Shown: positions 34,071-44,019 of the stretch, piece after piece
Layout of the letters: every line of letters starts with the position of its first letter
Position numbering within the stretch: position 1 is the first letter of the stretch
Origin: Tubulanus polymorphus
Lineage: Eukaryota > Nemertea > Palaeonemertea > Tubulaniformes > Tubulanidae
Assembly: GCF_964204645.1 (NCBI RefSeq)
Contig: NC_134029.1
Coordinates: forward strand, 60,001-124,000
Length of the DNA stretch: 64,000 nucleotides
Direction: 5' to 3'
Program-made: the position numbers and the translations under genes
The notes under the pieces: model-generated
The model's database searches: none
What the model was told of the DNA's origin: nothing
What the model saw: only the letters and a program-made list of their open reading frames with translations

Positions 34071-37000
34071 ATGGATGATAATAATGGAGTCGTTTTGTGT
34101 AAAGTGGAACGGAAGTCGTCAATGTTAACAGTGCCCCCTAGTGACGATGATAATCCCTACGCCGTACCGGCCGCAATACCGGTACCTTATAACCCTAACC
34201 TCCCTCCCCCTCCCCCTAACCCTCCCAGCTATGCCGAACCTACCATCAGCACTTCTACTCATCATATACCCGCAGCTGGTGAAGAGGAAGATGACGAGGA
34301 CCTTCCACCCCCTCCAATAGACTTGCCCCCTGCTATACCCCCTCCACTAACGATGGCCTACGCCACGGTGGATCTGATAGCAGGAGCTCCGACCATCGCA
34401 AAGGAACCACAAGCGGACTATTTCATCAGTGACGTCACGATTACTGACACGTTCACTGAAGCGGTCAGCGCGGAGGGAGACGAAACGGATTCAGAGGAAA
34501 GTGAAAAGAAAAGTGACGAGGGAGGAGACGTTCCTCCTTCTCAGCAGCAGATGAGGTCTAATCGAGCTGTTTCAATATTCACGACTCTCACTGATCGTAC
34601 GGCGCCTGAGGACGAGGAACAAGCTTTAAATCCGGAATTCTGGAGGCCGTTACCGCAACTAGAACCATTCATCGAAGCGCCCTCTATATCCATACATCAC
34701 GTGGTCGATACTAATACTCATTTTGAAGATAAATGCGCGTTTGTGACGACACAAGCAAAATTCATCGAGGAAGCTTCGAAACTCGCTGAACTGGTCAGTC
34801 ATTCATTATTGCTCCAAAATGGATTTCTTTTGCGGGCTTTGTTTAAAAGTATGTTTGTTGATGAATTGTTTTTAGGAAGATTTGATCGATGAAGGCAATG
34901 AGTACACGGTTTTATTGTATACCTGGAGAAGTTGTTCCCTCGCTTTACCAAAGGTAACAGTCATTCAATCACTTTACTGTATGTCCTTTTAGTCGAAACA
35001 GTTTGAAATTATTTGAATTTTTTGATTCAGCGTCAAAAGGAAAACCCGAAACCGGAATATTACAAGGAGACACTGGCGCTTATCAAACCGAAAATAGAGA
35101 AACTTCGCAAGTTTTATCAATATCAGGTAATTTTATCGACGCGGTGTCACTGTATCAAGATATCATACAAAGATGTTTAGAGAGGTTTAGTTGATATGTG
35201 CAGAACAAGATTCAAACTAAGTAATTCAAAGCAAAACATGAATAATATACAGGCAAACAATAAACCAATACAAGCTGTACGGTTCACAATGAAACACGAA
35301 GGGATTAAGGATTTATAGAATATAAATTCTATTTATTTACAGCAAAGAGCGATTGAATATTTGTGCAACGATATTAAAATGATTCGATTGTGTCAAATGA
35401 ATAAAAAGATGGAGAACGATTTCGTATCTTTATCTCACCTGCTGAAACTGGGAAAGATGCTGAGTATGTTGGCCGTTCTCGATGCTCTTAAAGATGTTAA
35501 AACAAGCGTAACTAATGACAACGCTACAATATACAGAAGGTAGGGTTCTATACAATTCGTATGATGTACATTCTTTGATACAGTATAAGTATCAAATGTA
35601 CACTTGTTATGTAGATTAACATAGTAGAAGGTGTACATATTGTGAATATTTCAGAGCTGTCCAGTTCCTGCGCAGGAATCCCGATTTCACGGAGGATCCG
35701 AACGTCCTAGAAACCGATAATATAATGACTCTGTGGTTGGCGACTAAAAAAGAAATCGGCAACAATTTGAAAAAAAAACTCATAGAAATTCCTGGATTCG
35801 AGAAAATATTGGCTGAAATAATAAAAACGTGCGTTCATATGTATGAGGATCACAAATATCTGATACCAGAGGAGAAATATACGCTAGTTAAGGTAAGTAA
35901 TGCTTGGGGTGTGGGAGAAGAGAAGGAGAGTGAAAGAGAGGAGGAGAGAGAGAGAGGAGATGAGGAGAGTGAGAGAGGAGAGGAGAGAGAGAGAGAGAGA
36001 GGAGAGGTGGAGAGTGAGAGAGAGGAGGAGAGAGAGGGGAAAGAGAGGAGAGTGAGAGAATGTGGAGAGGGAGAGGGGAGATATCGGCGTCGTATTGTCC
36101 CAATTCCACTAATCTCTGTTTAGTGAAAGTAATAGTAACTATTTTGATGCAGGCTATTGGATTCTGTATCTCGTTACTGAGTGGAGCAGTCATCTCTGAG
36201 AAAAAGAACTTGAAAGAAGCAAACATTTACAAAATGGACTCGAAAAAGAAAATCAATTTGTCAAAGATTGATAAGATATTCAAGGTAAAAACGAATCTTT
36301 TTATTAACCTGTAAATAAAGTATAAACAATATGAGATTTAGAGAATTGTGACTGGATTTACAGGAATTAGAGGCTGTTCCACTTTACGGGGATATGCAAA
36401 TAGCGCCGTTCATGTATGTAGATCAAAATGACGTAAATTACGACGAATCAAAATGGCCGCTATGTAGCGCCGGAACTAGTGGATCGCAGTGCCACCTGGT
36501 GGAGGCTTTACCTAAAATACGCGAGGATCATTTGAAGTATGTAGGTGAACTCGTACGTCTAAACTTAGGAGTAAGTATGAAATCTAACGATTGATTTTTA
36601 GGTAACTTGTGAGAAATGTGAATTAAATTGATGTTTGTCGTTGTGATCCAGGACCTGAAGGAAGAAACAGAAAAAGTGAAAATGGACGCTCAGAACCGGA
36701 AGATATACGATATAGGGATACGTGGTCTACAGTTGATATCATCTTGGTCATGTCGACTCATGGAAATGGTAAATACAATTACTATCAGTTCACACATCCA
36801 AAACTAATTCAGTAAAAGTTTGAATAGTGAATTTAAATTGATACAAATCATAAGGTATTTGATACAGGCATTGTTCTGTTACATGTCGAAATGAAAGGAG
36901 AGATCGTAATGATTGATGAGCGCTCCCCCTCTCTCCCTCCCCCCTCTCTCCCCCTCTCCCCCTCTCCCTGCTAATATCGGGTAAACCGTGTTTGATATGA

Positions 37001-43000: not shown

Positions 43001-44019
43001 TTTTTATTACATAACTACTGCATAGAATAAGAAATGAGGTCATTGCTCTAATCTACCACTCTAGTCGAGATTAATCCTGCAACCTAAGCCGAAACGTCTA
43101 CAATTCTCAAGGGTGTGATTCCTACTGACGAAAGCTCTTAACGGTTAAATTTCAGTAAAATCATTTCAGCCAATCTCTGACTGATTGATTGCCTCCCACG
43201 CGCTCTGTCAATGTTTATAAAGTTTTATGGTACTATATTTATTGATATATTTAGAGAATTATTTGGAGAAGGTTTACAGTGGGCAGGATGTACCCTCATC
43301 TATCTACTAGGACAACATCGACGGTTTGAGATGTTAGATTTATGTTATCACGCTGTCAAAGCTTTTCAACCGGATCGAGAAAGCGGACTGGGGAATGTTG
43401 GAATTGTAAGTGTTTTTTGTTAATCACCATCAGGGGGCACTGCATCAATATCATGATCCAGATAGCGTCCTCATGACTTACCCCCACAGCAGCCAGTCTC
43501 TCGTCCTCATGACTTACCCCCACAGCAGCAAGTCTCATATTGTTAAATGACGCTAGTTAGAGACACAGATACAACAGAATGACCCAGGCTACATAAAACC
43601 CATAATCGCTGCTTTGCGGCTATATTTGTTTATCGTGTTTTTTTTCTCTGCAGGATTTGAATCGAATGATGAACAGGATTAAATCCTACCGTTGTCTGAA
43701 CCGGCAGATATTTCACATTCTCGAGAAATCACTCACTGATTCACAGGGTTTAGTTACAGATAGAATCAGCAGCAACGGCGTCAAAATCATTCATTTCGAT
43801 CCACCGGAATTTACCGTTACTAAGCAACGACCTGAATCTTCTACTAGTGGCGCCGCCATGCGACGAGAATGCTGGAGTCGGGCAGATTCACAAACTTTCT
43901 CTTTCAACGAAGACGAATTCGAAGATGACGAGGATACAGCGCCCCCTAGTGATTCGAGGGCTAGCGTCTTGTCGTTATCGGGTCACGTGGCTGAGTCGGA
44001 TGAACAACACTATCTGTGA
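34071..44019 (+). CDS. Divergent CYFIP/Sra1 (WAVE regulatory complex subunit) with added N- and C-terminal regions
   Basis: 27 exons give 1523 residues; animal CYFIP proteins have about 1250. Exons: 34071-34793, 34876-34953, 35031-35126, 35343-35539, 35655-35892, 36153-36284, 36364-36570, 36652-36768, 37016-37093, 37838-38052, 38221-38359, 38581-38731, 38807-38889, 38967-39040, 39494-39590, 39979-40055, 40131-40257, 40356-40475, 40848-41138, 41290-41433, 41523-41619, 41707-41837, 41924-42005, 42110-42222, 42711-42958, 43255-43405, 43654-44019. Every phase closes. CYFIP blocks run in order: [124 protein letters not shown]. Residues 1-190 are new: proline runs ([29 protein letters not shown]) and an acidic serine stretch. 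The last 80 or so residues are also new, with [10 protein letters not shown]. In animals CYFIP binds Rac1-GTP and holds the WAVE complex inactive. The Arg before AVQFL in the first Rac site seems kept, but the nearby Cys is Thr (VKTSVTND). Confidence 0.92.
35905..36080. repeat. GA-rich low-complexity tract
   Basis: GAGAGAGGAGA-type sequence in intron 5 of the CYFIP-like gene. No coding role is supported. Confidence 0.9.
37431..37732 (-). mobile_element. tRNA-derived SINE-like element, copy 3
   Basis: Nearly identical to copy 1 over the tRNA-like part (GGACTCGAACCTGCAATCCC and ATGCCAGCCGACGACGCTAA in plus view). It has about nine copies of GTGACCAGTCAGGTGTG on the other side and several AACCCT units at the end. 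It lies in CYFIP-like intron 9, antisense to the gene. Confidence 0.75.
39060..39335. repeat. CAG/CAC-rich tract and 29-bp tandem repeat
   Basis: An interrupted (CAGCAGCAC)n stretch is followed by five copies of CAGCAGTACCTGATCCTCAT plus CTGCAGCAC. Both lie in CYFIP-like intron 14. Poly-Ala and poly-Leu frames over it are artefacts. Confidence 0.9.
42325..42668. repeat. (CTCC)n-type polypyrimidine tract
   Basis: About 340 bp of CCCTCCCTCT variants with longer internal duplications, within CYFIP-like intron 24, shortly before the exon 25 acceptor. Confidence 0.95.

Follow-up and report, generated by a model that had tools for sequence, protein, structure and literature searches.

The window analysed here is a stretch of 64,000 nucleotides from the nemertean Tubulanus polymorphus (C5:60001-124000 in a searched genome of 267.8 Mb and 77 contigs), and its main feature is a gene on the plus strand at 34071..44019 that encodes a paralogue of CYFIP. 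Spliced by hand from the genomic sequence, the gene has 27 exons and encodes 1523 amino acids, with all internal junctions of the GT-AG type, a single terminal stop and no internal stop, and an in-frame TGA at 34062..34064 (plus strand) closes the frame upstream of the first ATG. A phmmer search against the PDB aligns residues 192-1434 with residues 20-1231 of human CYFIP1 at 1127.7 bits, human CYFIP1 being the one distinct PDB sequence matched at E 0.001. PF05994 (FragX_IP) is matched over its full length (profile positions 4-885 of 886, E-value 2.6e-276, 919.4 bits against a cut-off of 23.3), and the CYRI-type, N-terminal Rac1-binding domain PF07159 is matched as well (5.2e-06, 26.3 bits against a cut-off of 23.1); these were the only two Pfam domains found in the protein at E 0.001. 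The claim in the initial annotation that the CYFIP core is recognisable from end to end is borne out by these phmmer and PF05994 matches; by phmmer, Pfam and an alignment of three proteins (human, window and the sister introduced below), the core and its homologous C-terminal end (aa 192-1454) extend over 34644..43809 on the plus strand, with introns between. From the gene model we conclude that this is a real, intact and divergent CYFIP paralogue with tails predicted to be disordered, and its product appears to be an uncommon form of a well-known protein, a switch in the control of actin assembly.

PF05994 and the homology over human residues 20-1231 relate the window protein to human CYFIP1/Sra1 and CYFIP2, subunits of the WAVE regulatory complex (human CYFIP1 in PDB 3p8c, 4n78, 7usc, 7usd and 7use). 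The PF07159 match reflects Rac1-binding domain homology with CYRI-A/B (FAM49), although the latter consist of the short Rac-binding module alone, unlike the full CYFIP encoded in the window.

The initial annotation had also called the gene a paralogue, and a conventional CYFIP, here termed the sister, was found in the same genome. A PF05994 profile search of the genome gave at least 22 exon matches, of which 10 fall in the window gene and the other 12 in a minus-strand gene near C5:1652736-1657733 (counts of profile matches are lower bounds throughout). When spliced from the genomic sequence, the sister gene covers C5:1651693-1660543 (minus strand), 1.55 Mb from the window gene on the same contig, and its 27 exons encode 1275 amino acids without the terminal extensions of the window protein. 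The domain layout is the same in both proteins, and 25 of the 26 introns match between the two genes, lying within 3 alignment columns of each other and in the same phase, which means that the duplication took place at the DNA level and that the two gene models corroborate one another, also at the junction between exons 1 and 2 of the window gene. Splicing of 34793 to 34876, a junction that the initial annotation had marked for checking, therefore seems well supported, with the sister junction at the same place and phase. The start of the sister protein, MATEKITLPDAVQNVDVLDELPLPD, and its end, VRCFQPPMHHSGTSNV, are much altered in the window protein. A retrocopy or pseudogene was considered and is ruled out by the intact frame, the splice sites and the introns common to both genes.

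Over the 1200 alignment columns that the three proteins share, human CYFIP1 agrees with the sister at 799 (66.6%) and with the window protein at only 540 (45.0%), while sister and window agree at 581 (48.4%). The window protein keeps 466 (58%) of the 803 sites at which human and sister are identical; in stretches of 50 residues, retention is weakest at human 1020-1069 (9/29), stands at 14/36 in human 1070-1119 and is strongest at human 270-319 (25/32). Site patterns uniting window with human (74) and window with sister (115) may merely reflect unequal branch lengths, and dating of the duplication against the vertebrate split is ruled out with three sequences, for which fast evolution and a very early duplication are indistinguishable. 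Fragments of eIF5B and of a GalNAc-transferase that neighbour the gene in the window have strong matches to animal proteins in the PDB, so the genome as a whole does not look fast-evolving.

A basic loop is present at aa 916-930 of the window protein (exon 40131-40257), where the sister has CMHYGTKINFPPANKY, and could act in membrane binding or as a nuclear signal. The gene is flanked by repeats: a (TA)76 run at 33852-34004 ends about 65 bases 5' of the ATG, and a 1.9 kb minisatellite at 44380-46277 begins about 360 bases past the stop.

Rac-binding sites, tyrosine lock and WCA contacts

The switch logic of the WAVE complex was established in PMC9481577, PMC5614565 and PMC7348743 using proteins from mammals and mutants made by design, and the contact residues compared here were taken from these papers and follow human CYFIP1 numbering. 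For the A site, 14 positions were listed and 11 scored, C179, S186 and K189 being dropped since human and sister differ there. The window protein keeps 5/11 (R190, Y108, N183, F194 and E434), among them the arginine anchor R190, which is R365 in the window protein. Changes specific to the window protein are Q95K, R104K, N176D, F626I and M632R, together with a gap at V96 that depends on the alignment. Met632, also Met in the sister, corresponds in the three-protein alignment to Arg813 (38872..38874, plus strand); M632D and the E434K/F626A combination disrupt Rac1 binding (PMC5614565).

A replacement of Cys by Thr in the first Rac site had been pointed out at the outset. The change of C179 to Thr is real, but it is weak evidence and indeed uninformative because the sister carries Ala there; with the position limited to small side chains (PMC9481577, Ding et al.), which are tolerated, loss of the Rac site through this replacement is ruled out. 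The changes M632R, F626I, N176D, F686H, Y704G and K958D, absent from the initial annotation, are more telling by alignment and set the window protein apart from human CYFIP1, which it resembles in the R190 anchor, in Y967 and G971 of the D site and in W86, R87 and C89 of the L2 loop.

For the tyrosine lock and the WCA contacts, S88 was dropped from the 10 positions listed since human and sister differ, and 7 of the 9 scored positions are kept (W86, R87, C89, L697, L841, F844 and W845). The two that are changed were identified by alignment. Phe686 of the tyrosine lock (PMC9481577), also Phe in the sister, is His867 in the window protein (39564..39566, plus strand), and the WCA-contact residue Tyr704 (PMC7348743), also Tyr in the sister, is Gly885 (40006..40008, plus strand). 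When L697D, Y704D, L841A, F844A and W845A are combined, the complex is active even with a broken A site (PMC7348743). At the disease positions given in the same paper, R87, A456, I640, E641 and Q701 are kept in the window protein and D700 has become Glu.

The core of the D site, Y967 and G971, is kept, Tyr967 being Tyr1157 of the window protein by alignment (41607..41609, plus strand; D-site role from PMC9481577 and PMC5614565). Over the 13 D-site positions the window protein equals human at 5 (P957, R964, Y967, G971 and I972) and the sister at 7 (the same five with K958 and Q979), such that, once the 6 positions at which human and sister differ are dropped, 5/7 are kept. I959 is altered in both paralogues relative to human, and R961K, F975Y and H978A are common to window and sister, as are K189R and S186A at the A site.

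Together with the N-terminal tail described below, these differences lead us to favour, tentatively and with somewhat less than even confidence, the reading that the gene is a strongly diverged, neofunctionalised CYFIP duplicate, one that would serve in an alternative WAVE complex with Rac acting mainly at the D site and with EVH1 proteins or profilin recruited by CYFIP itself. Several results weigh against it. The A-site changes are not enriched over the divergence elsewhere (5/11 kept against 461/792, Fisher P 0.54), nor are those at the lock and WCA contacts enriched over background (7/9 kept, Fisher P 0.32), and the changes at A site and lock may be drift rather than redesign. The D site is eroded too, with K958D and Q979S specific to the window protein and with R961K, P963H, E974S, F975Y and H978A differing from human at positions where the sister also differs. 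The P957A/K958D/I959A and E974A/F975A/H978A/Q979A patch mutants show moderately weaker Rac binding under permissive conditions, and the R961/P963/R964/Y967 patch is called the major contributor to Rac binding (PMC5614565).

The retention at A site and lock, being indistinguishable from that of the rest of the protein, would also be expected of an ordinary tissue-specific duplicate under relaxed selection, in which the tails are neutral low-complexity sequence, the site changes are drift and the protein remains a normal subunit of the WAVE complex. Such a duplicate would also have kept its frame and its splice sites, all of which are intact here. Tails of this low-complexity type are common in animal proteins, and CCT and CCC account for 23/31 Pro codons in aa 1-192 as compared with 12/43 in the core, as if derived from a simple repeat. 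We regard this explanation as slightly less probable than the preferred one: M632R adds a charge where a charge (M632D) breaks Rac binding (PMC5614565), and Y704 and F686, both lost in the window protein, are retained in human and sister alike.

The combination of kept central D-site residues with the lowest retention at human 1020-1069 and low retention at 1070-1119 might instead indicate action outside the WAVE complex, with the protein binding Rac as a sink or scaffold in competition with the conventional complex, in a manner somewhat reminiscent of CYRI; Rac sequestration by an altered CYFIP has been raised, in comparison with FAM49B, in PMC7348743. We consider such a role unlikely, since the whole core is kept, including the WAVE-contacting residues W86, R87, L841, F844 and W845 that would be needless outside the complex, and since several peripheral D-site residues are altered.

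Terminal extensions

The N-terminal residues that precede the aligned core (aa 1-191) are encoded at 34071..34643 on the plus strand, as placed by the gene model and the alignment. At 241 encoded amino acids, exon 1 of the window gene exceeds its counterpart of 70 in the sister by 171, and the last exon, at 121 against 55, is longer by 66; both tails were thus added within terminal exons. Both additions described in the initial annotation are thus present, the C-terminal one acidic as stated, but relative to the sister their sizes are 171 and 66 residues rather than about 190 and 80. The N-tail holds a first proline cluster at aa 44-54 with LPPPP and PPxY patterns (34200..34232, pattern scan), a second at aa 78-93 with EEEDDED before it (34302..34349, gene model and pattern scan) and an acidic Ser-rich stretch at aa 135-153 (34473..34529, gene model), all on the plus strand, so that the two LPPPP-type clusters and the acidic Ser-rich run reported before the core were correctly described.

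The N-tail was compared with ligand patterns for EVH1 and profilin, with significance judged against 2000 composition shuffles for each pattern. Two EVH1-type LPPPP matches (P 0.007) and the profilin-type patterns (P 0.0005) in the N-tail exceed the shuffles, and the single PPxY is not significant (P 0.12); in the sister protein neither an LPPPP nor a PPxY pattern was found. Charge and hydropathy place aa 1-94, 95-185 and 1460-1523 on the disordered side and the core on the folded side. For the N-tail there is no Pfam domain at E 0.001 and no PDB relative, only two near-identical low-complexity matches at E about 0.5. In searches that skip simple repeats, no second genomic match at E 1 was found for either tail, and to that extent derivation of the tails from some other gene in the genome is ruled out. 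No convincing counterpart of the sister N-terminus was seen in the window protein, human aa 1-19 lying outside the aligned reference; helix A of the human protein (aa 5-22) is N-terminal and packs on the complex (PMC9481577).

M1, at the first ATG to follow the in-frame TGA, stands in the context aatacaATGG, while Met95, an alternative start just past the proline clusters (34353..34355, plus strand), has the context ctaacgATGG; both are good contexts for a start codon. Judged by composition alone, codons 1-94 would be free of stops with a P of about 0.036, and codons 1-162 with a P of 0.0014. The N-terminal part of our preferred reading is weakened by the codon use of aa 1-94, which is atypical with a z of -3.48 against coding expectation, outside the range of the 26 control windows (13 from the window core, z -2.80 to +1.05, and 13 from the sister, -1.77 to +1.51), and by Met95 being a plausible alternative start. 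The codon use of aa 1-94 is above neutral (z +1.50), and when the test is trained on the window core alone both aa 1-94 and aa 95-162 stand at the neutral value.

If the protein started at Met95 or Met161, the proline clusters would be 5' untranslated sequence and the N-terminal addition would shrink to the acidic Ser-rich stretch or less. In addition to the good context of Met95 and the codon use of aa 1-94, this is favoured by the scores of the forward frames, by which codons 95-162 look more coding (+0.386 against -0.242 and -0.330 in the other two) and codons 1-94 do not (-0.221 against -0.310 and -1.184). It nevertheless seems improbable to us, given that M1 follows the in-frame stop as its first ATG in a context at least as good, that the frame stays open over 162 codons with the low P value above and that aa 1-94, above neutral, fall inside the range of the coding controls on that measure. 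Translation from M1 is likely on the sequence evidence.

The C-terminal tail (aa 1455-1523; 43810..44016, plus strand) is Ser-rich and acidic by the gene model and is predicted from charge and hydropathy, computed on aa 1460-1523, to be disordered. A pattern scan places the acidic patch EDEFEDDED at aa 1488-1496 (43909..43935, plus strand). The initial annotation had likened this tail to the acidic Arp2/3-binding motif, of WASP-family type, that WAVE carries. Trp is a defining feature of that motif, and there is none in or after the patch, W1476, the only Trp of the tail, preceding it; no WH2 was found in the window protein by Pfam at E 0.001. The identification of an Arp2/3 acidic motif is therefore rejected. 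An Arp2/3-binding tail that would make CYFIP itself a nucleation-promoting factor has EDEFEDDED and its nearby Phe residues in its favour and is nonetheless highly improbable, as Trp and WH2 are missing and the patch is not at the C-terminus.

Putative WAVE and Abi partners and a possible alternative complex

Profile searches of the genome found WAVE at one locus, with three exon matches at C1:29923101-29925417, and the Abi HHR as one match; within the scope of these searches, the window CYFIP has no additional WAVE or Abi of its own. The WAVE exons include EQPPPL and KFYTDPMYFFELW, which we take to be the tyrosine-lock segment by comparison with the human WAVE1 sequence. One exon of the WAVE gene (C1:29.92 Mb) is long and rich in proline, and it contains NLPPPPPSPP and 18 consecutive prolines.

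The pattern NLPPPPPxPP occurs both in this WAVE, as NLPPPPPSPP, and in the N-tail of the window CYFIP. The local alignment of the N-tail with WAVE scored above 500/500 shuffles, which is no proof of descent because shuffling breaks the proline runs, and no resemblance between the two proteins was seen outside the proline-rich stretches. Judging by these motifs, it is a reasonable hypothesis that CYFIP may have gained polyproline of the WAVE type. The earlier suggestion that partner recruitment may have moved into CYFIP is thus plausible for the LPPPP motifs, which are absent in the sister and similar to those of WAVE, and unsupported for the Arp2/3 motif.

With this in mind, the neofunctionalised duplicate that we favour would enter an alternative WAVE regulatory complex with the WAVE and Abi found once each. 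Rac would recruit it mainly through the D site, and it may grip the WCA end of WAVE less tightly or depend less on Rac at the A site. The LPPPP motifs of the N-tail would attract EVH1-domain proteins of the Ena/VASP type or profilin-actin, and the C-tail, instead of binding Arp2/3, would have a regulatory role, for instance as a target of phosphorylation. A more specific form of this proposal, for which we see little probability, is that the A-site switch is uncoupled, with the A site blunted by M632R, F626I and N176D, the clamp of lock and WCA contacts loosened by F686H and Y704G, recruitment through the D site at least partly kept and the polyproline function of WAVE copied into CYFIP. Were this so, the window protein would parallel in nature the laboratory mutant termed 'A site plus WCA*'.

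A natural paralogue that is changed at the A site and the WCA clamp, and that exists beside a conventional copy sharing the WAVE and Abi found once each, would reveal whether complexes that differ in their dependence on Rac arise in evolution, and also whether polyproline recruitment can move between subunits. In a literature search on invertebrate CYFIP (paralogues, duplications, polyproline, extended N-termini), no such protein is described in the titles and abstract starts listed, all from openly licensed papers, which is weak evidence of novelty.

Other parts of the window were noted as well. An open frame at 11294-12082 on the plus strand resembles, by eye, a membrane protein of four helices and has no Pfam match at E 0.001. 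The eIF5B and polypeptide GalNAc-transferase fragments mentioned above are exons at 1445-1834 (plus strand) and 49377-49952 (minus strand), respectively. Finally, 22089-31197 on the minus strand holds an array of major-facilitator genes resembling monocarboxylate transporters, in which several N-terminal exons are alike by eye and two open reading frames of about 300 amino acids, at 22089-22985 (which matches MFS_1) and 27020-27943, appear by eye to be very similar.

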